Positions 38,777 to 53,034 of a DNA stretch of 64,000 nucleotides are shown one piece after another. A program made the position numbers and the translations under genes. The stretch comes from Alistipes sp. (lineage in GTDB: Bacteria > Bacteroidota > Bacteroidia > Bacteroidales > Rikenellaceae), in NCBI GenBank assembly GCA_017936685.1, contig JAGBFA010000008.1, positions 1 through 64,000 of the forward strand, read 5' to 3'. The notes below the pieces were generated by a model, which saw only the letters and a program-made list of their open reading frames with translations, made no database searches and was not told the origin of the DNA. Numbering within the stretch: position 1 is the first letter of the stretch; every line of letters starts with the position of its first letter.

Positions 38777-40447
38777 ATGGGAGACGTTATCAAAGTCGTA
38801 TGCAAAAACACCTCTGCCGAGATCGAGGCGGAGATGGGGCGTTCGCTGCTCGAAGTGATGCAGATGGCCGGCATCGTCGGCCGATATCCGTATCTTGCGG
38901 CCTATGTCAACAACCGCTTCAAGGAGCTGAACTACAAGATATACACTCCCGTTACGGTGGAGTTCATCGACATCACGCATTTCGAGGGCTACCGCATCTA
39001 CCAGCGCACCATATCGTTCATACTGCAAAAGGCCGTGTGGGATCTCTTTCCCGGCCGCAAGCTCCACATACGCCATACGTTGGGCAGCGGCTTCTACTGC
39101 GAGTTCGATGACAGCGACGAGCTGTCGACGGGCGATATAGCCCGCATAAAGAGCCGCATGGCCGAGATCGTGGCCGAGAACATACCCATCGTGCGCGGCA
39201 AGCTGCCCACTTCGGAGCTGCGCCGCGAGTATGCCGCATTCGGCTTCGACGACCGCATAGCCCTGCTCGACACGCGCCCGCGGCTGTACAGCACCTGCCA
39301 CCGCATGGGCGGCATGGTGGGATACTTCTACGGTACGCTCGCCCCGTCGACCGGATATATCGGGGCGTTCGATCTGATGCGTTACGGCAACGGCTTCTAC
39401 GTGGCACTGCCGCAGCACTCCGACCCCGACCGCGTGTCGTCGTCGGTGCAGCTCGACAAGATGTTCGACATATTCCACGAGTATCAGATGTGGGTCAACA
39501 TCATGGGCGTGCCTACTGTCGGCGAGCTGAATGCCAAGGTGCTGTCGGGCGACGCAAGCGAACTTATCAAGATCGCCGAGGCCTTCCACGAGAACAAGAT
39601 CGCCGGCATAGCTTCGGCCATACAGCAGGCCAACCTCTCGTCGGGCACGCGCATGGCACTAATATCGGGTCCCTCGTCGAGCGGCAAGACCACATTCGCC
39701 AAACGGCTGGGCATACAGCTGCGCATATTGGGTCTCGATCCGGTGCTGATCTCGCTCGACGACTATTTCGTCGAACGCGACCGCACGCCGCGCGACGAGA
39801 ACGGCGACTACGATTTTGAGGCCTTGGAGGCCATCGACTTGGAGACGCTCAACTCGCATCTCAAACGATTATTCGCCGGAGAGAGCGTGGAGATCCCGCG
39901 CTACGACTTCATCTCGGGCAAGCGTCAGTGGCACGACCGCCCGCTGCGCCTGAACGACCGCTCGATACTGATCATGGAGGGCATACACGGCTTGAATCCG
40001 CGCCTTACGCCGGCCATACCCGACTCGGCCAAGTTCAAGATCTACATATCGTGCTTCACGTCGGTGGCCATGGACAACTTCTCGCGCATACCGACGACCG
40101 ACAACCGTCTGCTGCGCCGGTTGATACGCGACAACGCCACCCGCGGCTACAAGGCTCTGCCCACGCTGCAACGCTGGCCGAGCGTGCGCCGGGGCGAGGA
40201 GCGGCACATATTCCCCTATCAGGAGAATGCCGACGTGATGTTCAACTCGTCGCTCTTCTACGAGATCTCGGTGCTGCGCGCCAAGGCCGAGCCTATATTG
40301 CGCGAGGTGCCCGACACCGAACCCGAATATGCCGAGGCGCGGCGGCTGTTGAAGTTCCTCGACAACTTCATACCCATCGATCCCGACGAGATACCGCCCA
40401 CGTCGCTCCTGCGCGAGTTCATAGGCGGCAGTTCGTTCAAATATTGA
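38777..40447 (+). CDS. Uridine-kinase/phosphoribulokinase-like protein with TGS/threonyl-tRNA-synthetase-like N-terminus
   Basis: A 556-residue protein from the ATG at 38777 (the frame upstream overlaps the promoter). The N-terminal ~60 residues resemble a TGS domain. Residues about 60-270 resemble the second additional domain of threonyl-tRNA synthetase (HIRHTLGSGFYCEF). The C-terminal half is a P-loop kinase with GPSSSGKTTFAKRL (Walker A), ISLDDYFVERD, and YDFISGKRQWHDRPL. Such fusions are usually annotated as uridine kinase; the true substrate is uncertain. gcvP follows 30 nt later, probably in the same transcript. Confidence 0.85.
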   Translation: MGDVIKVVCKNTSAEIEAEMGRSLLEVMQMAGIVGRYPYLAAYVNNRFKELNYKIYTPVTVEFIDITHFEGYRIYQRTISFILQKAVWDLFPGRKLHIRHTLGSGFYCEFDDSDELSTGDIARIKSRMAEIVAENIPIVRGKLPTSELRREYAAFGFDDRIALLDTRPRLYSTCHRMGGMVGYFYGTLAPSTGYIGAFDLMRYGNGFYVALPQHSDPDRVSSSVQLDKMFDIFHEYQMWVNIMGVPTVGELNAKVLSGDASELIKIAEAFHENKIAGIASAIQQANLSSGTRMALISGPSSSGKTTFAKRLGIQLRILGLDPVLISLDDYFVERDRTPRDENGDYDFEALEAIDLETLNSHLKRLFAGESVEIPRYDFISGKRQWHDRPLRLNDRSILIMEGIHGLNPRLTPAIPDSAKFKIYISCFTSVAMDNFSRIPTTDNRLLRRLIRDNATRGYKALPTLQRWPSVRRGEERHIFPYQENADVMFNSSLFYEISVLRAKAEPILREVPDTEPEYAEARRLLKFLDNFIPIDPDEIPPTSLLREFIGGSSFKY

Positions 40448-40477
40448 TTATCGAAAAACTTAAATACGACAACTCAA

Positions 40478-43312
40478 ATGGAACAATTCGACAAGTTCGT
40501 AAACCGCCACGTGGGCGTTAACGATCCCGCCGACCTCGATGCCATGCTCGGCGTCATAGGCGTAAGCTCTGTTGAGGAGCTGATATCGCAAGTCATACCT
40601 CAATCCATCAGACTGAAACAACCGCTGCGTCTGCCCGCTCCCATGACCGAATGGGAGTATGCGGCTCACATAGAGGCTCTTGCCGCCAAGAACCGCGTCG
40701 TGCGCTCGTTCATAGGCATGGGCTACTATCCGACGGCCGTGCCGGCCGTGGTATCGCGCAACGTCTTCGAGAATCCGGCGTGGTACACCTCTTACACGCC
40801 CTATCAGGCCGAGATCTCGCAGGGACGTTTGGAGGCTCTTCTCAATTTCCAGACGGCCGTGCTCTCGCTCACGGGCATGGAGGTGGCCAACTGCTCGCTT
40901 TTAGACGAGGCAACGGCTGCGGCCGAGGCCATGCTGATGATGTTTGCAATGCGTTCGCGCGAGGCGGTCAAGCAGGGACGCAACTATCTCTTCGTCGATG
41001 AAAACATATTCCCACAGACGCTCGACGTGCTGCTCACGCGCAGCGAGCCGTTCGGCATAGAGATCATTCGCGACGACTTCGCCTCGTACACCTTCACCGG
41101 CAAGGAGTTCGGTGCCGTGGTGCAGTATCCGGCCGCCGACGGCCAGGTGCGCGACTACGCCGACTTCACCGCTGCGGCGCATGCCGCCGGCGTGACGGTG
41201 ACGGCCGTGGCCGATCTGCTGTCGTTAGTACTGTTGAAGTCGCCCGGGGAGTGGGGTGCCGACATAGCCGTGGGCACGACGCAGCGTCTGGGCTGCCCCA
41301 TGGGCTTCGGCGGTCCGAGCGCGGGTTACATGGCCACGCGCGACAGCTACAAGCGTCAGATGCCGGGACGCATCATCGGCGTGTCGGTCGACCGTCTGGG
41401 CAACAAGGCACTGCGCATGTCGTTGCAGATGCGCGAGCAGCATATCAAGCGCGAGAAAGCCACCTCGAACATCTGTACGGCTCAGGCTCTGATGGCCTCG
41501 ATGGCGGGCTTCTACTGCGTATACAACGGTGCCGAGGGTCTGCACCGCGCCGCCATGACGGCACACACGGCAGCCCTGACCGTGGCCGAGGCATTGGAGT
41601 CGATAGGCTACGTGCTGACATCGAAGTCGGTATTCGACACTATCGAGGTGGAGGCCGAAGCTGCCGTCATACAGAGCATCGCCCTGTCGCGCGGCATCAA
41701 CTTCTACTACCCCTCGGACAACCGCGTGCGCATGTCGTTCGACGAGCTGACAACCGACGAGGAGTTGCAGAGCGTCGCCGCGATCTTCGCCGAAGCCAAG
41801 GGACGCAAGCCGCGTAGCGTGAAGCGCGTGGAGAAGAGCAACCTTGCCGCGAGTCTCTGCCGCCGCTCGGAGATACTCACCGAGCAGGTGTTCCGCTCGT
41901 ATCGCACCGAGACCGAGATGATGCGTTATATCAAGCGTTTGGAGATGCGCGACATCTCGCTGATGAACTCGATGATATCGCTGGGTTCGTGCACCATGAA
42001 GCTCAATGCGGCGGTGCTGATGCAGCCGCTGTCGCTGGCGGGCTTCCAGAACATACACCCGCTGGCCCCTGCCGACCAGACCGAGGGCTACCGCGAGCTG
42101 ATCTCTTCGTTGGAGGGCTATCTTGCCACGATCACCGGCTTTGCCGGCTGCACGCTGATGCCCAACTCGGGCGCGGCGGGCGAGTACACGGGTCTGATGG
42201 TCATTCGCGCCTATCATCAGAGCCGCGGACAGGGCTATCGCAACGTGATTCTGATCCCGTCGTCGGCACACGGCACGAATCCTGCATCGGCAGCCATGGC
42301 CGGCATGAAGATCGTCACGGTGGCGTGCGACTCCAACGGCAACATCGATGTCGACGACCTGCGCGCCAAGGCCGAGGAGTACAGCTCGGAGCTGTGCGGA
42401 CTGATGGTGACATACCCCTCGACGCACGGTGTGTTCGAGAGCCGCATACGCGACATCGTCGATGCCGTGCACGATGCCGGCGGACAGGTCTACATGGACG
42501 GTGCCAACATGAACGCACAGGTTGCGCTGACCAATCCGGGATATATCGGAGCCGATGTCTGCCACCTGAATCTGCACAAGACCTTCGCCATGCCTCACGG
42601 CGGCGGCGGCCCGGGCGTGGGTCCCGTCTGCGTGGCCGAACATCTGGTTAAGTTCCTGCCGTCGCACCCGATCGTGGAGACCGGCGGCGACGAGGGCATA
42701 ACGGCCGTGAGCGCATCGCCGTGGGGATCGGCCATGCTGCTGCCCATCACCTACGGCTATATACGCATGCTCGGCGAGGAGGGTCTGCGCCGCGTCACGG
42801 AGCTGGCCATCGTCAATGCCAACTACATGTCGTCGGCTCTGAAAGATGAGTTTCGCACCTACTACTCGGGCGAGACAGGCCGCGTGGGTCACGAGATGAT
42901 TCTCGATCTGACGCACTTCAAGCACGACTTCAACATCGATTGCGGCGACATAGCCCACCGCTTGATGGACTACGGCTTCCATGCACCCACACTCTCGTTC
43001 CCCGTGCACGAGACGCTGATGGTGGAGCCGACCGAGAGCGAGTCGAAGGCCGAGATGGACCGTTTCATCGAGGCTCTGGTGGCCATCAAGCGCGAGTGCG
43101 AGGCCGCAGCCGCCTCGGGCGAGAAGGACAATGTGGTGGTCAATGCACCCCACACGGCTTTGGAGCTGGCAGGCGAGTGGTCGCACCCCTACACGCGAAT
43201 GCAGGCCGCATTCCCGTTGGAGTGGGTGGCACGCGCCAAGTTCTTCCCCTATGTGACCAAGATCGATAACGGCTACGGCGACAGAAATTTGGTGTGCCGT
43301 TGCTCGGAATAG
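40478..43312 (+). CDS. gcvP: Glycine dehydrogenase (decarboxylating), full-length P protein
   Basis: A 944-residue fused P1-P2 glycine decarboxylase. It releases CO2 from glycine and passes the aminomethyl group to GcvH. PLP binds Lys701 in HLNLHKTFAMPHGGGGPG, and the glycine-rich stretch after it is the family hallmark. MGYYPTAVPAVVSRNVFENP and NSMISLGSCTMKLNA are further conserved blocks. The gene is intact. gcvH is 6.3 kb upstream, so the system's genes are scattered here rather than in one operon. Confidence 0.97.
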   Translation: MEQFDKFVNRHVGVNDPADLDAMLGVIGVSSVEELISQVIPQSIRLKQPLRLPAPMTEWEYAAHIEALAAKNRVVRSFIGMGYYPTAVPAVVSRNVFENPAWYTSYTPYQAEISQGRLEALLNFQTAVLSLTGMEVANCSLLDEATAAAEAMLMMFAMRSREAVKQGRNYLFVDENIFPQTLDVLLTRSEPFGIEIIRDDFASYTFTGKEFGAVVQYPAADGQVRDYADFTAAAHAAGVTVTAVADLLSLVLLKSPGEWGADIAVGTTQRLGCPMGFGGPSAGYMATRDSYKRQMPGRIIGVSVDRLGNKALRMSLQMREQHIKREKATSNICTAQALMASMAGFYCVYNGAEGLHRAAMTAHTAALTVAEALESIGYVLTSKSVFDTIEVEAEAAVIQSIALSRGINFYYPSDNRVRMSFDELTTDEELQSVAAIFAEAKGRKPRSVKRVEKSNLAASLCRRSEILTEQVFRSYRTETEMMRYIKRLEMRDISLMNSMISLGSCTMKLNAAVLMQPLSLAGFQNIHPLAPADQTEGYRELISSLEGYLATITGFAGCTLMPNSGAAGEYTGLMVIRAYHQSRGQGYRNVILIPSSAHGTNPASAAMAGMKIVTVACDSNGNIDVDDLRAKAEEYSSELCGLMVTYPSTHGVFESRIRDIVDAVHDAGGQVYMDGANMNAQVALTNPGYIGADVCHLNLHKTFAMPHGGGGPGVGPVCVAEHLVKFLPSHPIVETGGDEGITAVSASPWGSAMLLPITYGYIRMLGEEGLRRVTELAIVNANYMSSALKDEFRTYYSGETGRVGHEMILDLTHFKHDFNIDCGDIAHRLMDYGFHAPTLSFPVHETLMVEPTESESKAEMDRFIEALVAIKRECEAAAASGEKDNVVVNAPHTALELAGEWSHPYTRMQAAFPLEWVARAKFFPYVTKIDNGYGDRNLVCRCSE

Positions 43313-43416
43313 AAAATTTTTCGTTCCTTTGCAGGACGCAATCCGTCGGGGCGGCCTTACTGAGGTCGCCGCAGTGGGGCGGAATGTGTAATAATTATCG
43401 TATATAATTGAAATAG

Positions 43417-44037
43417 ATGAAAGTAGAACAGAACAAAATGGTGGCGGTCGACTACACTCTGACCGTCGACGGCAAGATTGCCGACCGATCGCAGCCCGGC
43501 AAGCCGCTCGAATTTATCTGCGGCATGGGCATGTTGCTGCCCAAGTTCGAGGCGGCGATCATGGGTAAGGAGCCGGGCGAGAAGGTGGCCTTCACGCTCG
43601 AAGCCAAGGACGGCTACGGAGAGGTGATCCCCGAAGCTGTCGTCGAGCTGCCCAAGACCGTATTCATGATGGAGGGCAAGATCGCCGAGGAGATACTCTT
43701 CGTCGGCAGCCAGATACCTATGGCCGACGCTCAGGGCAACCGCATGGTCGGTGTTGTCAGGGAGGTCAAGGCCGACAGCATCATGATGGACTTCAACCAC
43801 CCGATGGCGGGCAAGACGCTCAACTTCGAGGTCGAGGTGGTGTCGGTGCGCGACGTTACGCCCGAGGATCTGGCCAGCCAGGGCGGCTGCGGCTGCGGCT
43901 GTCACGACTGCGACGGCGATTGCGGCGGTGAGCACGAGTGCCACGGTGACCATGATTGCGGCGGCGAGCACGAGTGCAAGCACGGACATCACGGCGAGCA
44001 CGATCACGGCTGCGACTGCGGCTGCGACCACAAATAA
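43417..44037 (+). CDS. slyD: SlyD-like FKBP peptidyl-prolyl isomerase with Cys/His metal-binding tail
   Basis: A 206-residue protein. Residues 1-~150 form an FKBP fold with an inserted chaperone (IF) domain, as in SlyD (VDYTLTVDGKIADRS, LPKFEAAIMGKEPGEK, then FNHPMAGKTLNFEVEV). The last ~50 residues hold 11 Cys and 11 His among Gly/Asp/Glu, a metal-binding tail like that of E. coli SlyD, which binds nickel for hydrogenase maturation. This tail is unusually regular (GGEHEC twice). It acts in the cytoplasm as a foldase. No hydrogenase genes are in the window. Confidence 0.93.
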   Translation: MKVEQNKMVAVDYTLTVDGKIADRSQPGKPLEFICGMGMLLPKFEAAIMGKEPGEKVAFTLEAKDGYGEVIPEAVVELPKTVFMMEGKIAEEILFVGSQIPMADAQGNRMVGVVREVKADSIMMDFNHPMAGKTLNFEVEVVSVRDVTPEDLASQGGCGCGCHDCDGDCGGEHECHGDHDCGGEHECKHGHHGEHDHGCDCGCDHK

Positions 44038-44090
44038 AGCCCGACGGGCACTATCGAGCGGCAGAAGTCAACGGGCTTTTGCCGCTTTTC
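44037..44090 (+). terminator. Terminator after slyD with two interlocked stems
   Basis: AAGCCCG (44037-44043) pairs with CGGGCTT (44072-44078), and GCGGCA (44058-44063) pairs with TGCCGC (44080-44085), which is followed by TTTT. The stems interleave, so they are either alternatives or a pseudoknot-like fold. The second stem plus the T-run looks like an ordinary intrinsic terminator. Confidence 0.6.
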
Positions 44091-44112
44091 GTTTGAAATA
44101 CACAGGTGTTAT

Positions 44113-45282
44113 ATGTCCATCTGCATATCGCAAATCGCTGCCACGCTGCGCAGCGACCATATAGTGTGCCGACGGCTGCCGCGGCCGCGGCTCTGCATCG
44201 GGCCCGATGGATCGGTGCCGCTCCATGCCGGCAACAGCGCGGTGGTGGCCAAGGTGACGCTGGGCGACGATCCGAAGCCGTGGGCTATGAAGTGCTACAC
44301 GCGTCGCAAGGAGCGTCTGAGCGAGATCTACGGCCGCGCTTTTTTTGCCGGCGAGCTATTCGTCTACGACATATCGGGGCGCGGCGAGTGGGTCGACGTG
44401 GTGATAAGGGAGTGGATCGATGGCGTGACGCTCGACGAGGCTCTGCGCGAGGCCGTGGCGGCATGTTCCCGGCCGCGATTGGCCGCTTTGAGCCGCAGCT
44501 TCGATAGCATGGCCGCCCGTCTGCTGCGCTCGGAGCGTGCCCACGGCGATCTGAAACCCGAAAACATCGTGCTCGCGCCGGAGGGCATGACACTCGTGGA
44601 TTGGGACGCGGCGTGGCTGCCGGCCATAGGCGAAAGCAGAGCCGTGGAGACCGGTACGCCCGACTGGCAGCACCCCGCGCGCACGGCAGCCCTCTACGAC
44701 AAGAGCCTCGACGACTATCCGGTGGCACTCGTCTCCTCGATGCTGGCCTCGCTTGCCGCCGACTGCCGCGCGCTTGCTCCCCGGCTCGATGCCGGAGGCC
44801 GCCTGTTTTCGCCTGCGGCCGCCGTGGCGGGCAGAGATCCTGTGCTCGATCTTGCGGAGGATATACTCGCTCGCGCGGCCGATGCCGTCCACTACCGCAT
44901 AGCACGCCTTTTGCACTCGCCTATGCCGCAGCTGCCTCTGCTCGCCGAGCTACTCGCATACGCTCTGCGCGAGCCGGAGGACGATCCCTGTTTCGACGGA
45001 GCCGAGCTTGCCCGCAGCCGCACCACGTCGCATTGGGGATATGTGCGCGGCGGAGAGTGGATCACTCCGCCGCTCTACGACATGGGCTTCGAACCCTCCG
45101 ACGGCGTGGCTCTGGTGGAGATAGGCCGCTGCCGCCACTTCATCGATGCGGGCATGCGCTCGGTGGTGGAGTGCTCCTCCTTCGACAGCGTGAAGCCCAT
45201 GCGCTCGGGTTGCGCCGCGGCTGTCAGAGACGGCGAACGCTATACGATATATCTTGACGGCGGCATAGAGCGGACGTTTTGA
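44113..45282 (+). CDS. Ser/Thr protein kinase with C-terminal WG-repeat-like segment
   Basis: A 389-residue eukaryotic-type kinase. Lys60 (WAMKCY) is in the place of the ATP-anchoring Lys; H144-GDLKPEN-151 is a complete catalytic loop with Asp146, Lys148 and Asn151; Asp163 (LVDWDAAW) replaces DFG. TGTPDWQHPA (181-190) resembles the activation/P+1 region. After a helical segment, residues from 308 (HWGYVRGGEWITPPLYD) look like a degenerate WG repeat, seen again in the last gene of the cluster. No membrane segment is present, so it is cytoplasmic. It is the first of four same-strand genes of unknown process; the target is unknown. Confidence 0.8.
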   Translation: MSICISQIAATLRSDHIVCRRLPRPRLCIGPDGSVPLHAGNSAVVAKVTLGDDPKPWAMKCYTRRKERLSEIYGRAFFAGELFVYDISGRGEWVDVVIREWIDGVTLDEALREAVAACSRPRLAALSRSFDSMAARLLRSERAHGDLKPENIVLAPEGMTLVDWDAAWLPAIGESRAVETGTPDWQHPARTAALYDKSLDDYPVALVSSMLASLAADCRALAPRLDAGGRLFSPAAAVAGRDPVLDLAEDILARAADAVHYRIARLLHSPMPQLPLLAELLAYALREPEDDPCFDGAELARSRTTSHWGYVRGGEWITPPLYDMGFEPSDGVALVEIGRCRHFIDAGMRSVVECSSFDSVKPMRSGCAAAVRDGERYTIYLDGGIERTF

Positions 45283-45308
45283 ATATTGGTGAAAAAACAC
45301 TAATTTTG
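45278..45308 (+). promoter_or_regulatory. Predicted internal promoter before the DUF4954 gene
   Basis: TTTG at 45278-45281 (over the kinase stop codon) and TAATTTTG at 45301-45308 are 19 nt apart. The DUF4954 ATG at 45336 follows 28 nt later. This is a close consensus fit and means the last three cluster genes can be transcribed without the kinase. Confidence 0.65.
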
Positions 45309-45335
45309 TCGGGTATACAATTATCATCGAAGCCG

Positions 45336-47063
45336 ATGTGCAAATTAAGAGATATTACCGCCGATGAACGCCGCGCATTGCAGGCGGGCGGCTCGACGGC
45401 CGAGTGCTGGGACACGATCAGGGTGAGCGAGGATTTCTCGCCGCAGCAGGTGTCGCGCAGCCGTTTCGAGGGGCGGGTGGAGATAGGCAGCCGTGCCGTT
45501 ATCGTCGACTCGTGCGTGGCCGATTACCGCATAGGCGACTGCGCCGTGGTAGAGTCGGTCGGACGCATGGAGTGCCGCCGCCGCACCGCGTTCGGCAACG
45601 GCGTGCGCGTGTCGACGATCAACGAGAACGGAGGCCGCGCCGTGGCCATATACGATCGGCTGAGTGCTCAGACGGCATATCTGGCCGCTGTCTGCCGCCA
45701 TCGCCGCGAGGCTGTCGGGGCTATCGAGCGTATGGTCGATGCCTACGCCGAGAGCCGCGCCGACGATATGGGCAGCGTGGGCGAGGGCGCACGCATATCG
45801 GGCGTGAAGTTCATTCGCGAGGTGCGCATAGGCAGCCGCGCCACCGTCGAGGGTGCGTCGTGGCTCGTGGAGGGCACCGTGGGCGACGATGCCTATGTGG
45901 GTGTCGATGTCAAGGCCGAGGAGTTCATATTCGATGCAGGCTCGCACGTGGGCGGAGGAGCCACCGTCGAGCGTTGTTTCGTGGGCGAGGCGTGTATCCT
46001 GGACAAGGGATTCACCGCAGCCGATTCGCTCTTTTTCGCCAACTCGCACTGCGAGAACGGCGAGGCGGCGGCCATATTCGCCGGACCCTACACCGTATCG
46101 CACCATAAGTCGTCGCTGCTGATTGCGGGCATATTCTCGTTCTTCAATGCCGGCAGCGGCTCCAATCAGTCGAACCATCTGTTCAAGAGCGGTGCCGTGC
46201 ATCAGTCGGTGCACCCTCGCGGCTGCAAGTTCGGCAGCGGCGCATATATCATGTCGCCGGCCATCGAGGGGCCGTTTACGGTGGTCATAGGCCATCACTC
46301 GCGGCATCACGATACGCACGACATGCCGTTCTCGTATCTTATCGAGAGCGACAATACGTCGATGCTGATGCCGGGTCTGAATCTGACCAGCTACGGCACG
46401 GTGCGCGACGTGGAGAAGTGGCGCAAGCGCGACCGCCGCAAGATATGCCGCGACAGGATCAACTTCGAGGAGTTCAACCCCTTTTTGACGGGCAAGATGG
46501 CACGCGGCGTCGATGCGCTCAACTCGCTGCGCGACGGCGACCCCGATGCCGCGCTATATCACTACAACCGCACCACGATCAAGTCGACGATGCTTGCCCG
46601 CGGACTGAAGCTCTACAACCGCGCCATAGCCGCCTCGCTTGGCGAGATGCTGCGCGCGGGCTCTCCGAGCGCGGACGGTGCAGGCCGCGGCGAGTGGATC
46701 GACGTGGCCGGACAGTATGTCACGCGCGCCGCGGTCGATGCCATACTCTCCGACTTGGAGAGCGGAGCGATAGATCGTTTGGAGCAGGTCGACGAGCGTT
46801 TTTCCGCCTTTGCCCAAGACTACACTTCATACGCCTACGACTATGCCTATGACTTCCTCTATGCACTGCTCGGGCATCAGCCCTCGGAGCAGGAGGTGGC
46901 CGAGACCGTTGCCGCGGCCGAAAACATCGTGCGCACGATGCGCGAGCAGACCGAGGCCGACCGCCGCCGCGATTGCAGCGACGATATGTCGATAGGCTAC
47001 GGCTACGACTACCCCTCCGGGGAGGAGCGGCGTGCCGATTACAGGAATGTCCGCGGTCTGTGA
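45336..47063 (+). CDS. DUF4954 family protein, left-handed beta-helix (hexapeptide) type
   Basis: A 575-residue protein from the ATG at 45336 (an in-frame TTG at 45279 lies on the predicted promoter). Residues about 50-340 show repeating short turns with V/I-G-x-x-A/G patterns (VEIGSRAVIVDSCVADYRIG, EGTVGDDAYVGVDVKAE), typical of a left-handed beta-helix as in acyl- and nucleotidyl-transferases. IFSFFNAGSGSNQSNHLFKSG and HHSRHHDTHDMPFSYL are strongly patterned and probably functional. The C-terminal ~180 residues are helical. It fits DUF4954, common in Bacteroidota and of unknown function. The vWA gene begins at or just after its stop. Confidence 0.8.
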   Translation: MCKLRDITADERRALQAGGSTAECWDTIRVSEDFSPQQVSRSRFEGRVEIGSRAVIVDSCVADYRIGDCAVVESVGRMECRRRTAFGNGVRVSTINENGGRAVAIYDRLSAQTAYLAAVCRHRREAVGAIERMVDAYAESRADDMGSVGEGARISGVKFIREVRIGSRATVEGASWLVEGTVGDDAYVGVDVKAEEFIFDAGSHVGGGATVERCFVGEACILDKGFTAADSLFFANSHCENGEAAAIFAGPYTVSHHKSSLLIAGIFSFFNAGSGSNQSNHLFKSGAVHQSVHPRGCKFGSGAYIMSPAIEGPFTVVIGHHSRHHDTHDMPFSYLIESDNTSMLMPGLNLTSYGTVRDVEKWRKRDRRKICRDRINFEEFNPFLTGKMARGVDALNSLRDGDPDAALYHYNRTTIKSTMLARGLKLYNRAIAASLGEMLRAGSPSADGAGRGEWIDVAGQYVTRAAVDAILSDLESGAIDRLEQVDERFSAFAQDYTSYAYDYAYDFLYALLGHQPSEQEVAETVAAAENIVRTMREQTEADRRRDCSDDMSIGYGYDYPSGEERRADYRNVRGL

Positions 47064-47086
47064 CCGAAAAAATAGCGATTTACGAT

Positions 47087-47953
47087 ATGTACACCCGTCC
47101 CATAACCCATCTCGACCGCACGCTGTTTCTGTTCGCCATCGACTGCTCAGGCTCGATGCGCGAGACGATACGCTTCAACGGCATGACCATGTCGAAGGCC
47201 GAGGCCGTGGCACTGGTCACCAACTACATGATCGACGAGCTGGTGGAGCGTGCGCGCCGCCGCGACGGTGTACGCAACTATTACGATATAGGCGTGATAG
47301 GGTATTCGGGCGAGGGTGTGCGCCCGATGCTCGGCCAAAGCGGCGGGGACGACTGCACGGTGGCGGTCGACCGTCTGGCCGCCCAGATGCCGCCCGTGTG
47401 CCGCATGGACTTCGACCAACGGCTTCCCGACGGCAGCCGTTCGGCGGCTTCGTTCGATCTGCATCGCTGGATCGAGCCTTTCAGCTCGGGTCTTACACCC
47501 ATGTACGAGGCTCTGATGGAGGTGCGCGACACGCTGCGCCGCTGGTGCCTGCGGCCGGAGAATGCCGCGAGTTTTCCGCCCGTGGTGTTCAACATCACCG
47601 ACGGCGAGAGCAGCGACGGCAGCTGCGAGGAGCTGTGCGACATGGCTGCGCAGATACGCCGCACGGGTACTGCCGACGGTAGCACGCTGCTTATCAACAT
47701 ACATCTGTCGACCGACTCCGAGCGCGGCAGCATCATGTTCCCGTCGAGCGAGGAGGCCTGCGGCGAGGACCGCTATTCGCGCCTTCTGTACGAGATGGCC
47801 AGCACCATGCCCGAGGTGTTCGACGATGCCATACGCTCGTCGGTGGGCGGAGTGTCGCTGCCGCCCTACAAAGGCATGGCCTACAACGCATCGGTGGCAC
47901 AGCTGCTGACGGTGCTCGACATAGGGTCGCGGAGTGTCAACAACATATTCTGA
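47087..47953 (+). CDS. von Willebrand factor A (vWA) domain protein with intact MIDAS
   Basis: A 288-residue protein made almost wholly of one vWA domain. The metal-ion-dependent adhesion site is complete: Asp19-x-Ser-x-Ser23 (FAIDCSGSMRE), Thr137 (SSGLTPMYEAL) and Asp172 (FNITDGESSDG). There is no signal peptide, so it is intracellular, like TerY-type and other vWA proteins that partner kinases or AAA ATPases. The ATG at 47087 is chosen; a GTG at 47060 overlapping the DUF4954 stop (GTGA) is an alternative adding nine residues. The pseudokinase gene starts 13 nt after its stop. Confidence 0.85.
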   Translation: MYTRPITHLDRTLFLFAIDCSGSMRETIRFNGMTMSKAEAVALVTNYMIDELVERARRRDGVRNYYDIGVIGYSGEGVRPMLGQSGGDDCTVAVDRLAAQMPPVCRMDFDQRLPDGSRSAASFDLHRWIEPFSSGLTPMYEALMEVRDTLRRWCLRPENAASFPPVVFNITDGESSDGSCEELCDMAAQIRRTGTADGSTLLINIHLSTDSERGSIMFPSSEEACGEDRYSRLLYEMASTMPEVFDDAIRSSVGGVSLPPYKGMAYNASVAQLLTVLDIGSRSVNNIF

Positions 47954-47966
47954 TCGAAAGGGGCTT

Positions 47967-48950
47967 ATGAACATCTGTACGATAGTGGATTTCAGAGGTG
48001 CGGTCGACGATCCCGGCCGCAGGCTGCGACATATGGCCGATGCCCGCCGTGCCGCCGAGGCCGGAGTGTGCCGCTCGACGCTCTTCGCCGAGTGCCGCAT
48101 GGAGTGGCGCGGGCAGCTGTGGCTGTTCTATGCTCCGATCGCATTGCGCTCCATCGAGCGTGCCGAACGTGCCGCCATGGCATTGCGGCGGCTCACGTCG
48201 GATCCTATGGGCGCATACCGCATACTGCGCGACGAGATCGTCACCGATCCCGTTGCGGGCGTTGCGAGCGACGCAGTCGTAGAGCCTCTGCCTGCCGTGC
48301 AGACCCTCTTGCAGGCGGTTGCCGGCATGGACGCCAGCCGGTTGGACGGCTCTTTGGAGAGACTGCGCCGACGGCTGCAATGTCTCGACATAAGCCACAA
48401 CAACCTCTCGCCCGACAACATCGTCGTCGATACGGCCGGCGAGCTGCACCCCATACGTCTGCACTACGTCACGCAGGGCTTCGGCGGCGATGAGGAGGCT
48501 TTCGAACGCTTGGAGAGCTATATCGCCGAGCACGCGCTCGATGCCGCCGGCTGTCTGCACGACACCACGGCCGCATACCGCGCCGCAAGCGGCTGCCGTC
48601 CGGCGGAGTGGCTGTGGGCGGGCAATATGTTCGAAGACCGCGTGCGTGTGCGCGGCCGGGGCGGTTACGGATTCGTCGACGGTGACGGCCGCACGGTAGT
48701 GAAGCCTATATATTTCTGGGCCGACGACTTCCGCGAGGGTCGTGCCGCGGTGCAGGACTTCGACTCGCGCATGGGGCTTATCGACAAGAACGGCCGCGAG
48801 ATCATAGCCCCGCTATACGACATTGTGGAGTACGATGCCGACACGGGACGCTCGTGGGTGTCGCTCGACTCTCTGTGGGCGCAGTTCGACTATGCGGGCT
48901 GCCGCATCACCGATTGGCTGCCGCGCGAAGAGTGCGATATAGAGCTGTAA
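47967..48950 (+). CDS. Pseudokinase-like protein with C-terminal WG repeats
   Basis: A 327-residue protein from the ATG at 47967, preceded by a good AAAGGGG ribosome site. Residues 144-151 read HNNLSPDN, the layout of a kinase catalytic loop (HxDLxxxN) but with the catalytic Asp changed to Asn146, so phosphotransfer is unlikely. The N-lobe is reduced. Residues about 225-320 hold two clear WG/KWG repeats (GGYGFVDGDGRTVVKPIYF, MGLIDKNGREIIAPLYD) and a partial third. WG repeats usually mediate binding. It may be the non-catalytic partner of the kinase at 44113, with which it shares the kinase-plus-WG plan. Confidence 0.75.
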   Translation: MNICTIVDFRGAVDDPGRRLRHMADARRAAEAGVCRSTLFAECRMEWRGQLWLFYAPIALRSIERAERAAMALRRLTSDPMGAYRILRDEIVTDPVAGVASDAVVEPLPAVQTLLQAVAGMDASRLDGSLERLRRRLQCLDISHNNLSPDNIVVDTAGELHPIRLHYVTQGFGGDEEAFERLESYIAEHALDAAGCLHDTTAAYRAASGCRPAEWLWAGNMFEDRVRVRGRGGYGFVDGDGRTVVKPIYFWADDFREGRAAVQDFDSRMGLIDKNGREIIAPLYDIVEYDADTGRSWVSLDSLWAQFDYAGCRITDWLPREECDIEL

Positions 48951-48981
48951 ACAAGAATATTAACTAAAAACCTATTATATC

Positions 48982-49908
48982 ATGGAAAAAGTAAGATGTC
49001 TTATCATCGGCAGCGGCCCTGCGGGCTTCACGGCTGCCATATACGCTTCGCGTGCCAACCTCTCGCCCGTACTCTACGAGGGTATCGAGCCGGGCGGCCA
49101 GCTGACCACCACCACGCAGATCGAGAACTTCCCGGGTTATCCCGAGGGTATCGGCGGCACTGAAATGATGGAGGACCTGCGCCGTCAGGCGCAGCGTTTC
49201 GGCGCGCACGTGCGTCGCGGTATCATCACTTCGGTCGATCTTCGGCAGCGTCCGTTCCACGTGACGGTCGACAACGAGCATGAGATCGAGGCCGAGTCGC
49301 TGATCGTGGCCACGGGTGCCTCGGCGCGCTATCTGGGTCTGGAATCGGAGAACCGTTTTCGCGGCATGGGTGTCAGCGCATGCGCCACGTGCGACGGCTT
49401 CTTCTATCGCCGCAAGGACGTGGCCGTAGTGGGCGGCGGCGATACGGCGTGCGAGGAGGCCACCTATCTGGCATCGTTGTGCCGTCAGGTCTATATGATC
49501 GTCCGCAAGCCCTATCTGCGTGCCTCGAAGGCCATGCAGGAGCGTGTGTTCGCCACCGAGAACATCAAGGTGCTGTTCGAGCAGAACACGGCCGAGGTGT
49601 TGGGCGACGACAACGGTGTGACCGGCGCGCGTCTGCGTCACAGCACTACGGGCGAAGAGACCCAGATCGCCATCGACGGCTTCTTCCTGGCCATAGGCCA
49701 TCACCCCAATACCGAGCTGTTCAAGGGTCAGTTGGAGCTGGACGACGAGGGCTACATCAAGGTGTGGGGCGCATCGTCGAAGACCAGCGTCGAGGGCGTG
49801 TTCGCTGCGGGCGACGTGAAAGACCCGTCGTACCGCCAGGCCATCACGGCTGCCGGTTCGGGCTGCATAGCCGCACTCGACTGCGAACGTTTCCTTTTGG
49901 CGCAATAG
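48982..49908 (+). CDS. trxB: Thioredoxin-disulfide reductase
   Basis: A 308-residue flavoenzyme that reduces thioredoxin with NADPH. The FAD motif GSGPAGFTAAIYASRA is at 10-25, the redox pair Cys134/Cys137 in ACATCDGF, and the NADPH motif GGGDTACEEA at 151-160; the C-terminal FAAGDVKDPSYRQAITAAGSG completes the FAD site. It is cytoplasmic and central to redox balance in an anaerobe. It begins 31 nt after the WG-repeat gene; whether it shares that transcript is unclear. Confidence 0.97.
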   Translation: MEKVRCLIIGSGPAGFTAAIYASRANLSPVLYEGIEPGGQLTTTTQIENFPGYPEGIGGTEMMEDLRRQAQRFGAHVRRGIITSVDLRQRPFHVTVDNEHEIEAESLIVATGASARYLGLESENRFRGMGVSACATCDGFFYRRKDVAVVGGGDTACEEATYLASLCRQVYMIVRKPYLRASKAMQERVFATENIKVLFEQNTAEVLGDDNGVTGARLRHSTTGEETQIAIDGFFLAIGHHPNTELFKGQLELDDEGYIKVWGASSKTSVEGVFAAGDVKDPSYRQAITAAGSGCIAALDCERFLLAQ

Positions 49909-49937
49909 GGTGTGAACGACATTAGAATAAGGCTGTT

Positions 49938-50348
49938 ATGAAACGCTATCTTGTCATGATCCTGTCGGCCGTGCTGCTCACGGCCTGCGGCGTGTCGGTC
50001 TCGTATGTGGGCAAGTCCTACGCTCCGGTGCAGAGCGTCGATCTGTGGTTCGACTGGCGCGACGTGCCGTGCGACTACGAGACTATGGGGCATATCGACG
50101 CTTCGCCGGGTCTGTTCACCAATATCGAAGACGCACAGGCCGCCATCGAGGCGCGCGCCCGCGAGGCGGGAGCCGATGCCGTGGTCTTCGAGGGTGTGCG
50201 GCGCAATGCCTCTGCGCCCGAGTACAAAACCACCGAGCGCAGCGAGAAGAATATCGACGGTTCGGTGACGCGCACCACAACAACGACCAAGGAGCAGGCC
50301 ATATCGCACACGCTCATGGCGACCTTCATCAAATACAAACGACCTTAA
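49938..50348 (+). CDS. Small lipoprotein of unknown function
   Basis: A 136-residue protein with a lipoprotein signal (AVLLTAC, Cys17) followed by a compact domain: a VDLWFDWRDVPCDYETMGHI core, then EARAREAGADAVVFEGV, and a Thr-rich tail (RTTTTTKEQ). The AREAGADAVV segment resembles small periplasmic proteins that sort heavy or odd substrates by redox or folding state, but I do not recognise a named family. It lies between trxB and rnz on the same strand with short gaps (29 and 4 nt), so it is likely co-transcribed with them. Confidence 0.7.
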   Translation: MKRYLVMILSAVLLTACGVSVSYVGKSYAPVQSVDLWFDWRDVPCDYETMGHIDASPGLFTNIEDAQAAIEARAREAGADAVVFEGVRRNASAPEYKTTERSEKNIDGSVTRTTTTTKEQAISHTLMATFIKYKRP

Positions 50349-50352
50349 CGAT

Positions 50353-51276
50353 TTGAGCTTCTCGGTAACCATACTCGGCAATGCGTCGGCCAAACCTACG
50401 GCCGACAGCCACCCCTCGGCACAGGCGGTCAACTTCAACGAGCAGTACTATCTGGTCGATGCAGGCGAGGGCGTGCAGCAGCAGCTGGTGCGCCGCGGCA
50501 TCAACCCGCTGCGGCTGCGCGGCGTATTCATCTCGCATCTGCACGGCGACCACGTCTACGGTCTGTTCCCGCTCATCGCCACGCTCGGGCTGTACGGCAA
50601 GCGCACGCCGTTGGACGTTTACGCCCCTGCGCCGTTAGGCGAGATATTGGAGGGGCACAAACGCTGGTTTGCCGCCGATCTGCCCTACGAGGTGGTGTGG
50701 CACAGGGTCGATACGACGCACCACGAGCTTGTATTCGAGAACAATACGCTCGAAGTGTGGAGTCTGCCGCTGCGTCACCGCGTGCCTGCGTCGGGCTATC
50801 TGTTTCGCGAGAAGACCCCGCAGCTCAACGTCGAGAAGTACAAGATCGTGAAATACGGGCTCGACATAGGACAGATCGTGGCGGCCAAGCGCGGCGAGGA
50901 TATCACGCTCCCGACGGGCGAGGTGATCCCCAATTCCGAGCTGACCTACATGCCGCACCTGCCGCGGTCGTATGCTTACTGCTCCGACACCAACTTCTCG
51001 GCACGGCTGGCCGAGATGGTGCGCGGTGTCGATCTGCTCTATCACGAGACCACATACGCCGATGCGGAGCGTCGTCAGGCGCGCGACAGAGGACACTCGA
51101 CCACCGTCGAGGCGGCCGAGGTGGCGTTGCGTGCCGGCGTGGGACGACTCATCATCGGGCACTTCTCGTCGCGATACAAAGACCGCGAGGCGTTGCTGGC
51201 CGAGTGCCGCAGCCGTTTTGCCGAGAGCTACATAGCCCGTGAGGGCGAGAAATTCGAAATAGAAGAGAGACGATGA
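50353..51276 (+). CDS. rnz: Ribonuclease Z (tRNA 3'-endonuclease)
   Basis: A 307-residue metallo-beta-lactamase-fold nuclease that trims tRNA 3' trailers. Motifs: the HLHGDHVYGL zinc motif, YCSDTNF, LLYHETTYA with AGHST-like GHSTTVEAAEVA, and LIIGHFSSRY. The start is a TTG at 50353 (MSFSVTILGNASA): no ATG or GTG in frame fits, and the first strand VTILG is standard for the family N-terminus. The stop overlaps the next ATG by 4 nt. Confidence 0.94.
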   Translation: MSFSVTILGNASAKPTADSHPSAQAVNFNEQYYLVDAGEGVQQQLVRRGINPLRLRGVFISHLHGDHVYGLFPLIATLGLYGKRTPLDVYAPAPLGEILEGHKRWFAADLPYEVVWHRVDTTHHELVFENNTLEVWSLPLRHRVPASGYLFREKTPQLNVEKYKIVKYGLDIGQIVAAKRGEDITLPTGEVIPNSELTYMPHLPRSYAYCSDTNFSARLAEMVRGVDLLYHETTYADAERRQARDRGHSTTVEAAEVALRAGVGRLIIGHFSSRYKDREALLAECRSRFAESYIAREGEKFEIEERR

Positions 51277-52013
51277 CAAAGGCCGAGATACAATTCGTCC
51301 GCTCGTTAGCGGACAAGCGTGCGCGCGACGAGCAGTCGCTGTTCGTGGCCGAGGGTGAGAAACTCGTCGGCGAGATACGTTCGTCGTACCTGCGCATAAG
51401 AAAGATATACACCTCGACCGACAGCCTGCCGTGGCCCGAGGCCGAACATGTCACTGCCGCCGAGATGGGGCGCATCTCGATGCTCAAAACACCCTCCTCG
51501 GTGCTTGCCGTGGTCGAAAAGCCGCACTCTCGGCTCGACCGCAGCACGCTCGGCTCGCGGCTGACCCTGGCTCTCGACGGTGTGCAGAACCCCGGCAATC
51601 TGGGCACCATAATACGTCTGGCCGACTGGTGGGGCATAAGCGATGTGATATGCTCCGAGGATTGCGCCGACTGCTTCAACCCCAAGGTCGTGCAGGCCAC
51701 CATGGGTGCCATACTGCGCGTGCGCGTGCACTACACCTCTCTCGATGCCCTGCTTGCCGAGGCCTCGGCCGGCGGCGTTCCCGTCTACGGAACCTTCCTC
51801 GACGGCGACGACATCTACGCCGCCGATCTTACGCCCAACGGCATCATCGTCATGGGCAACGAGGGGCGCGGCATCTCCGACACCTGTGCCCGTCACATCA
51901 CCCGCCGCCTCTTCATTCCTCCCTATCCGCGCGATTGTCGCGGCTCCGAGTCGCTCAACGTAGCCATAGCTACGGCGGTGGTGTGTGCCGAGTTCCGCCG
52001 ATCTTTTTCGTGA
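51273..52013 (+). CDS. SpoU/TrmH-family RNA 2'-O-ribose methyltransferase
   Basis: A 246-residue SPOUT methyltransferase. An N-terminal substrate-binding segment (1-~85; SLFVAEGEKLVGE) precedes the knotted catalytic domain, with motif 1 LDGVQNPGNLGTIIRLADW, motif 2 IVMGNEGRGIS and motif 3 SESLNVAIATAVV. It likely methylates rRNA or tRNA; the exact nucleotide is unknown. It overlaps rnz by 4 nt. Its last residues (RRSFS) and stop codon fall inside repeat element E, so the element's insertion or growth set the C-terminus. Confidence 0.9.
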   Translation: MTKAEIQFVRSLADKRARDEQSLFVAEGEKLVGEIRSSYLRIRKIYTSTDSLPWPEAEHVTAAEMGRISMLKTPSSVLAVVEKPHSRLDRSTLGSRLTLALDGVQNPGNLGTIIRLADWWGISDVICSEDCADCFNPKVVQATMGAILRVRVHYTSLDALLAEASAGGVPVYGTFLDGDDIYAADLTPNGIIVMGNEGRGISDTCARHITRRLFIPPYPRDCRGSESLNVAIATAVVCAEFRRSFS

Positions 52014-52125
52014 AAAGCGGCATTCTGCTTCCGCTCGCTCCATTGTCCGAACGGGTAGTACGTCAAGTACAACCCGTCCGTCCAATGTTCGTTGCGCGTT
52101 GCATAATACCGCTTTTGACGAAAAA
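52004..52125 (+). repeat. 122-bp-family palindromic element, copy E
   Basis: Starts TTTTTCGTGAAAAG over the last codons of the methyltransferase gene; the TGA at 52011-52013 is part of the terminal repeat. Ends CTTTTGACGAAAAA. The core is CGGGT-A-GTAC, loop gtcaa, GTAC-A-ACCCG, a paired change from the CGGGC/GCCCG of copies B and D. Confidence 0.88.
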
Positions 52126-52147
52126 GCGGGTAGTGGTGCTTGGGTTG

Positions 52148-52269
52148 TTTTCCGTGAAAAGCAGCATTCTGCTTCCGCTCGCTCCATTGTCCGAACGGGT
52201 AGTACGTCAAGTACAACCCGTCCGTCCAATGTTCGTTGCGCGTTGCATAATACCGCTTTTGACGAAAAA
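52148..52269 (+). repeat. 122-bp-family palindromic element, copy F
   Basis: Nearly identical to copy E and tandem to it after a 22-nt spacer with GTGGTGCTTGG. Left end TTTTCCGTGAAAAG, right end CTTTTGACGAAAAA. The high identity to E suggests a recent tandem duplication or gene conversion. Confidence 0.88.
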
Positions 52270-52302
52270 GCGGGTAGTGGTGCTTTGGTGGCTATTCCAC
52301 CT

Positions 52303-52728
52303 GTCATTCTGAACGAAGCTATGCGGAGTAAAGAATCCGGTTATGGACGATAAGGCAAAAAGACTGTCACTCCGAGGAGCAACGTAGTTGCGACGTGGGA
52401 GTCTCGCCACACAAAACTGTCACTCCGAGGGAGGACATTGCCCGACCGTGGGAGTCTCGCGGTCGGGAGAGTGGCGGTCGTACAGGAGCGTGTTTGCCGC
52501 CCAAAAGAGAGATTCTCACGTCGCAGTCATTCGACTGCTCCTCAGAATGACAGGACGGTGGAAATAATCGCGCACAGATTTCTCGCTTGCGCTCGAAATG
52601 ACAATCTCGACGTGTCATGCTGAGCGGAGCAATGCGGAGTGAAGCATCTGGTTGGGGTAGACATGGTGTATTATCCTCTCACGTCGTCCCCAACAAGATT
52701 CTTCACTTCGTTCAGAATGACATGGCTG
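52303..52728. repeat. Dense array of covarying ~40-bp hairpin repeats
   Basis: Forward units: one near 52303-52340 (ATTCT/AGAAT), 52364-52405 (ACTCC/GGAGT), 52417-52458 (ACTCC/GGAGT) and about 52614-52652 (ATGCT/AGCAT). Reverse units: 52509-52553 (ATTCT/AGAAT, inner GCAGTC/GACTGC), 52576-52603 (ATTTC/GAAAT) and about 52690-52722 (ATTCT/AGAAT). No gene is supported in 52014-53034. Confidence 0.75.
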
Positions 52729-52759
52729 TGGAAATAGTCTCCAAAGAATTATGCGCCGC

Positions 52760-52879
52760 TTTTTCATCAAAATGCCGCAGATGCGACTCTCCGACAGAGC
52801 GAGACGATGGGCTGTACTGGTGTACTGCCCATTGGCGAGCGACGAGGAGAGGAAGCAGGTGCGGTATTCTCACGGAAAA
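52760..52879 (-). repeat. 122-bp-family palindromic element, copy H (diverged)
   Basis: Reverse orientation. The ends are altered (TTTTTCATCAAAA and TTCTCACGGAAAA), but the core hairpin TGGGC-A/T-GTAC is kept. It follows copy G, read on the reverse strand, after a 22-nt spacer. Confidence 0.75.
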
Positions 52880-52901
52880 CTTTCCAAGCACCACAACCCA
52901 A

Positions 52902-53023
52902 TTTTTCGTCAAAAGCGGTATTATACCACGCGCAACGAACATTGGACGGACGGGTTGTACTTGACGTACTACCCGTTCGGACAATGGAGCGAGCGGAAGC
53001 AGAATGCCGCTTTTCACGAAAAA
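52902..53023 (-). repeat. 122-bp-family palindromic element, copy G
   Basis: Reverse orientation, with TTTTTCGTGAAAAG at 53023 reading leftward. It begins 11 nt after the mqnC stop codon in that gene's sense direction. Very similar to copies E and F, including the CGGGT/ACCCG core. Confidence 0.87.
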
Positions 53024-53034
53024 GACACGGAAAA

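Follow-up and report, generated by a model that had tools for sequence, protein, structure and literature searches.

TerY-P triads, as outlined in passages of PMC11090510 (citing Anantharaman 2012 and Gao 2020), combine a TerY-type von Willebrand A (vWA) protein, a PP2C phosphatase and a Ser/Thr kinase fused to a Zn ribbon or an OB fold. Little is understood about such vWA-kinase-phosphatase triads, and few functions have been established for bacterial Ser/Thr pseudokinases. Here we analyse a locus in a 64,000-nucleotide stretch of Alistipes DNA (the window, by which we mean the whole stretch) that encodes a predicted kinase (K1), a TerY-type vWA protein and a predicted WG-repeat pseudokinase (K2). 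We consider it probable that these genes constitute a phosphosignalling trio derived from TerY-P, core to and vertically kept in one Bacteroidales family, with the pseudokinase at the position of the phosphatase. The three genes are as follows.

44113-45282, plus strand: K1, Ser/Thr-type protein kinase (predicted), 389 residues, with an HGDLKPEN loop, a DxD metal motif, the beta3 Lys and, at the C-terminal end, a WG-like region
47087-47953, plus strand: TerY-type vWA protein with a complete metal-ion-dependent adhesion site (MIDAS), as read from its sequence, 288 residues; alternative GTG start at 47060
47967-48950, plus strand: K2, predicted pseudokinase with C-terminal WG repeats, 327 residues, with HxN for HxD and without the DFG Asp

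The three proteins and their conservation

K1 carries its HGDLKPEN loop at residues 144-151 and matches the PADLOC model STK_OB at E 8.5e-18. Its kinase domain scores 18 bits in Pfam, under the cut-off of 31.7, and the profile of its kinase half matches solved kinases with a best E of 2.5e-8; a Pfam scan with E up to 1 found no OB-fold or Zn-ribbon match. The catalytic Asp of HxD, the Asn and the metal Asp of DxD are conserved in 50 of 50 aligned rows, five of which come from other families (L088, with two genes, is counted twice), and the alphaC Glu is present in 45. K1 is a kinase with intact catalytic residues and is predicted to be active. Single in-frame stops occur in the K1 matches of two draft genomes (G006 C8 and G021 C34), through sequencing error or decay.

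The vWA protein matches the PADLOC TerY model at E 1.3e-52, falls below the Pfam cut-off for a vWA domain and has no close relative among solved structures (best E 0.006). Its MIDAS residues are retained across 35 aligned rows (D in 34, S in 35, S in 35, T in 32, D in 35), which marks it as a predicted TerY-type protein with the full metal site.

K2 has HNNLSPDN at the position of the K1 loop, and the two motifs align when only the kinase halves are compared (hhalign probability 99.9, E 4.5e-37); full-length profiles of the two proteins also cross-match, with E down to about 1e-11. The catalytic Asp is found in none of 43 well-aligned K2 rows (Asn in 35, Arg in 3, Ala in 2, His in 2, Gly in 1), these being the 54 rows minus the second frame of L120 and ten rows from other genera whose loop region fails to align (L113, L115, L117, L119, L121, L123, L125, L126, L127 and L132). 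The DFG column holds Asp in 0 of 54 rows. Despite the lost catalytic motifs, an alphaC-type Glu (residue 90 of the window's K2) is kept in 53 of 54 rows, perhaps for a structural or nucleotide-site role. Pfam detects WG repeats in K2 (E 3.7e-14) and lists no kinase domain; the case for a kinase fold comes from profile matches, in which the kinase half of K2 finds solved kinases (best E 3.5e-6), among them ROP5 (2.3e-4), which we take to be a pseudokinase. By its sequence K2 is a pseudokinase homologous to K1. A decaying pseudogene is ruled out for the window's copy, since its frame is open both here and in the genus locus L039 and its dN/dS (ratio of nonsynonymous to synonymous rates) between the two is 0.22. 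The same comparison gives 0.26 for K1, 0.14 for the vWA gene and 0.03-0.10 for the flanking genes and for the DUF4954 gene that lies between K1 and vWA; K1, vWA and K2 are all under constraint. The K2 of L043, in a draft genome, has a single in-frame stop, from sequencing error or decay.

An earlier note, made from the letters of the window, had singled out four same-strand genes at 44113..48950: an active-looking Ser/Thr kinase with HGDLKPEN, a DUF4954 beta-helix gene, a vWA protein with full MIDAS and a WG-repeat protein with a dead kinase loop, the kinase-vWA pairing being likened to TerY-type systems. Four plus-strand open reading frames are indeed present there, and each of these descriptions, the TerY likeness included, agrees with the matches and alignments reported here. 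Its further claim of WG-type repeats in both kinase-like proteins stands clearly for K2, while in K1 the repeat is sub-threshold in Pfam (21.8 bits against a cut-off of 25.6).

The trio was followed through 150 sampled genomes of one family, probably Rikenellaceae (Bacteroidales). Outside the genus, finding vWA required a profile: a single-sequence search of 24 genomes of the order, one per family, gave 0 matches, whereas the profile matched 136 of the 150 family genomes and 22 of 22 genera, with a single match in 132 of the 136. Across the order it matched 9 of 295 genomes, three of them in the family, leaving 6 of 292 outside it; in a listing of this order-wide set by kinship, no genome of the family stands without a match. 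Across the phylum, 18 of 395 genomes match at E 1e-15, the window's own included. Of 99 near-complete genomes of the family (completeness of 90% or more, contamination of 5% or less), 93 have vWA. Within this set, the K2 kinase-half profile (E 1e-5; K2 counts use profiles built from A1-A4) matches all 93 genomes that have vWA and none of the 6 that lack it, and the K1 kinase-half profile (E 1e-10) matches 90 of 93 and 1 of 6, the latter a partial match; the Fisher values, 8.9e-10 and 4.6e-6, overstate the case because related genomes are treated as independent. Over all 150 genomes the K1 counts are 130 of 136 with vWA and 5 of 14 without. The two kinase-half profiles partly cross-match, so kinase-type partners were tested jointly. 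Three genus members without vWA (G007, G009 and G036) have no full K1 or K2, and of these G009 and G036 are incomplete drafts.

Gene order was compared at loci chosen by the presence of vWA. Among 35 genus genomes (33 relatives, L039 and the window; L040, on the same contig as L068, is counted once), K1-DUF4954-vWA-K2 occurs in 14, K1-vWA-K2 in 7 (a stop interrupts K2 in L043, and the contig ends within it in L055), vWA-K2 in 8 and DUF4954-vWA-K2 in 1. A K2-type gene adjoins vWA in 30 of the 35. The same holds for all 22 loci compared from 21 other genera of the family, with the K2-type gene upstream of vWA in L127; K1 stands beside vWA in 22 of the 35 and, in the order K1-vWA-K2, at 13 of the 22, the order in L131 being read by hand. 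In the genus of the window the trio is often found between FKBP and TrxB, and several trios of other genera lie near aromatic-pathway genes, namely a DAHP synthase-chorismate mutase in L114 and a prephenate dehydrogenase in L116 by Pfam, with L115, L118 and L130 likewise so placed as judged by eye. Given these differing neighbours, the trio seems to have moved as a unit. The conservation of K1, vWA and K2 as a unit is supported.

Two genus members that lack K1 and have a divergent solitary vWA (G003 and G028) carry a separate cluster (L135 and L136), in which vWA-like and kinase-like genes, named by eye, accompany a PP2C matching PF13672. This cluster is a possible functional substitute.

Absence of the partner-type phosphatase and the probable origin of K2

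Outside the family, the usual neighbour of this vWA is a putative phosphatase. A PP2C-like gene adjoins it in all six loci from other families of the order (L087-L092), where the assignment rests on motifs seen by eye, sub-cut-off PF13672 matches in two of the six and mutual profile similarity, and in eight of nine loci from other orders or classes (all except L141), giving 14 of 15 in total. K2 was the best match of an open reading frame in 0 of these 15 loci, and the kinases found in eight of the nine more distant ones all have an intact HGD....N loop. PF13672 exceeds its cut-off in 0 of 6 scanned partner PP2Cs; because it misses or underscores them, we searched with a profile built from the six partners themselves. 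This profile matched 0 of the 150 family genomes, the window's included, and with E up to 1e-3 on both strands it found nothing in 57 family loci (35 of the genus, one of them a duplicate contig, and the 22 of other genera). As controls, leave-one-out searches recovered all six members at E 1.7e-8 or better, and eight new matches were found outside the family. The earlier note's remark that no phosphatase is present, a pseudokinase taking its place, is supported as regards the partner-type PP2C, both at the window's locus and in the family genomes searched.

That note had also proposed that one kinase-like protein evolved from the other. In a quickly built tree of 85 kinase halves, with SH-aLRT support only and with 13 K2 and 6 K1 rows omitted as fragmentary, gapped, divergent or duplicate-like, a 99% branch separates K2 from all other rows, and the TerY-P-type kinases of other families, four in number, fall together with K1. 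This grouping makes K2 look like the derived copy, in agreement with the proposal, although long branches leave the details of its origin unsure. In L139, from another order of the class, a kinase with an intact HGDLKADN loop and seven WG repeats (Pfam E 6e-100) lies near a vWA-PP2C pair, so WG repeats were probably joined to the kinase before K2 arose. Most simply, a WG kinase would have been duplicated, one copy would have lost catalysis and the PP2C would have been lost, all before the family radiated.

The window's genome also holds, outside the window, tandem Hanks-type kinases of about 490-850 residues with a PP2C protein, at C16:44000-63900 (L133) and C10:256500-271465 (L134). The two regions share open reading frames of equal length and matching ends (821, 492, 345 and 343 residues), a duplication that is either true or a product of assembly.

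Alternative explanations and the place of DUF4954

Several observations weigh against a TerY-P-derived trio with a pseudokinase in the phosphatase position, beyond the overstated Fisher values given above. The beta3 Lys of K1 is Lys in 36 of 50 rows and Arg in 13; the K1 profile finds nothing in six of the 136 family genomes with vWA, and in many genomes K1 lies apart from vWA-K2. In the genus, one locus has K1-vWA without K2 and four have vWA alone. An AlphaFold2 model of K2 from three sequences has a mean pLDDT of 48, with the kinase half mostly below 50 and only the WG part confident. At 10 of the 22 loci of other genera the protein in the K2 position keeps the WG repeats, and often the N-terminus, by which it was mainly recognised, while its kinase half is shortened or unaligned; for these ten the label of pseudokinase is tentative at best, and L113, whose loop does not align, has an HxD-like string outside the alignment. 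Finally, generic PP2Cs of the PF13672 type are present away from the locus in 7 of 37 genus genomes. One of the seven is the window's own, where the gene lies beside a kinase array, and such a general phosphatase could act on the trio.

The looseness of K1 invites the reading that vWA-K2 and K1 are two separate units, with K2 serving as a scaffold or sensor for vWA and not regulating K1. Loci with vWA-K2 and no adjoining K1 speak for it: there are 9 among the 35 genus genomes, of which one also has DUF4954, and 9 among the 22 loci of other genera. K1 is often located elsewhere in such genomes. The K1 profile nevertheless follows vWA across near-complete genomes (90 of 93 against 1 of 6), and K1, vWA and K2 adjoin in that order in most loci of other genera (13 of 22), so that we find separate units doubtful.

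Alternatively, the trio could serve in anti-phage defence as a variant of stand-alone TerY-P. PMC11090510, citing Gao 2020, presents TerY-P-like modules that have OB-fold kinases as antiphage systems that stand alone. K1 and vWA both match PADLOC defence models, and relatives of the vWA in other families of the order are fused to or near DarT and occur with DUF6939/NADAR-like genes. Defence genes are usually patchy in distribution. The vWA that marks the trio is instead found in 93 of the 99 near-complete genomes and in all genera sampled, for the most part in one copy, and its chromosomal neighbours are conserved. The neighbours in the window are GcvP, FKBP, TrxB, a tRNase Z-like gene and a SpoU methylase-like gene by Pfam, and those scanned gave no effector, nuclease or mobile-element match except the tRNase Z-like housekeeping gene. 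Overall, a defence module appears unlikely.

The remaining features of the locus are these.

45336-47063, plus strand: DUF4954 and DUF6819 protein of left-handed beta-helix type, 575 residues; a neighbour judged not to belong to the system
44056-44087, plus strand: weak terminator-like hairpin between FKBP and K1

The DUF4954 gene (Pfam E 9.4e-141; DUF6819 E 4.1e-19) adjoins the other three in 14 of the 35 genomes of the genus, and its dN/dS of 0.10 indicates strong constraint, but a pathway of all four genes is very improbable. None of the 22 loci of other genera has DUF4954 with the trio. Of 34 vWA-positive genus genomes, 8 (some of them drafts under 80% complete) give no DUF4954 match. The gene is present in 10 of the 24 one-per-family genomes of the order, which have no vWA match by single-sequence search, and in G004, G007 and G017 it adjoins trxB with no trio there. 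In G007 (L110) the order is FKBP-DUF4954-TrxB, the trio missing. Within the genus sample, DUF4954 presence does not track that of vWA (Fisher p = 1). DUF4954 is ruled out as a partner on these grounds, and we judge it a resident or passenger of the locus. Of the earlier note's four-gene unit, then, K1, vWA and K2 survive as a conserved unit, and DUF4954 falls away.

Spacing, which the same note had called tight, is tight as measured, with gaps of 53, 23 and 13 bp along K1, DUF4954, vWA and K2. It is not distinctive: FKBP lies 75 bp upstream of K1 and TrxB 31 bp downstream of K2, almost as close, and the four genes are therefore not set apart by spacing alone. Scans of the region returned seven terminator-like sites against 4.5 (standard deviation 2.2) in shuffles and three promoters against 2.7 in shuffles, and an Rfam search of window positions 40000-53000 gave no match. 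Further downstream (52002-53025), between the SpoU methylase-like gene and a minus-strand gene, a 142-nt direct repeat stands at 52004 and 52148 in copies 98% identical, with a 159-nt inverted copy at 52867-53025 that is 94% complementary.

A possible circuit and its relation to known systems

If the trio is a TerY-P derivative as we propose, K1 would correspond to the kinase of TerY-P and act as the functional kinase. The vWA protein would hold a divalent metal at its MIDAS and bridge the kinase modules, or connect them to a substrate, and K2, a duplicated kinase that has lost catalysis, would occupy the place of the PP2C phosphatase. The likeliest arrangement is that K2 binds both partners, vWA as well as K1, and controls how active K1 is, either allosterically or through competition for the vWA site, the WG repeats acting as sensors that bind a ligand or a protein. 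Such a switch would be tuned by the binding of a pseudokinase, not by a dedicated phosphatase. More tentatively, we suggest a family-wide core circuit that is free of phosphatase, in which a dead paralogue acts by way of the metal-dependent vWA protein, as an adaptor, to brake (or activate) its active sister; this is conceivable, though we would not wager on it. Near-universality in the family favours a core role over mobile defence, and the circuit probably serves stress or housekeeping signalling.

No title among the matches listed in our search of openly available papers described the trio, and an earlier description may exist; a search for Alistipes with TerY gave no match. Among described proteins, the bacterial Ser/Thr pseudokinases discussed in PMC12599244 resemble K2 in being kinase homologues without canonical motifs, and K2 differs from those treated there in being tied to a vWA gene and an intact-motif paralogue and in being found in Bacteroidales. 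By a term search, that paper's main text contains none of vWA, WG repeat, TerY, PP2C and Bacteroid.

Closer relatives are found at the vWA loci outside the family. L139 shares a WG-repeat kinase with HGDLKADN near a TerY-type vWA, and differs in keeping a PP2C-like gene, in lacking K2 and in having its kinase on the opposite strand. The loci L087-L090, from other Bacteroidales families, share a homologous vWA with the trio, and two of them (L088 and L090) also a K1-type kinase. They differ in that a PP2C-like gene stands beside vWA, that a DarT-type ADP-ribosyltransferase domain is fused to the TerY-type vWA (L088-L090, Pfam E 1.4e-35 or better) or sits on the PP2C-like protein near it (L087), and that a DUF6939 (NADAR-like) gene adjoins vWA (L087, L088 and L090 by Pfam, L089 by eye); no PP2C-like, DarT or DUF6939 gene was seen beside the family loci that we read. 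This TerY-P-linked DarT module may be undescribed, as a literature search showed no mention of TerY among the matches listed.

It is with the TerY-P triad itself that the comparison is most direct. The trio shares with it adjacent genes, a TerY-type vWA with full MIDAS and a Ser/Thr kinase that precedes vWA, as it does in L088 and L090, has intact catalytic residues and appears related to the kinases of vWA-PP2C loci. TerY-P has been linked to defence, restriction or tellurite genes; the neighbours in the window are GcvP, FKBP, TrxB and the tRNase Z-like and SpoU methylase-like genes (ter genes were not sought genome-wide). The trio differs in that K1 has a WG-like region in place of an OB or Zn-ribbon match, that a predicted WG-repeat pseudokinase stands where the PP2C partner would be, and that it is near-universal in one family, not patchy. 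With DUF4954 removed from the picture, the trio offers a natural swap experiment in common gut bacteria, in which the adaptor and the kinase lineage of TerY-P were kept while the phosphatase gave way to a pseudokinase; this opens to test both the role of the vWA protein and the capacity of a pseudokinase to substitute for a phosphatase.

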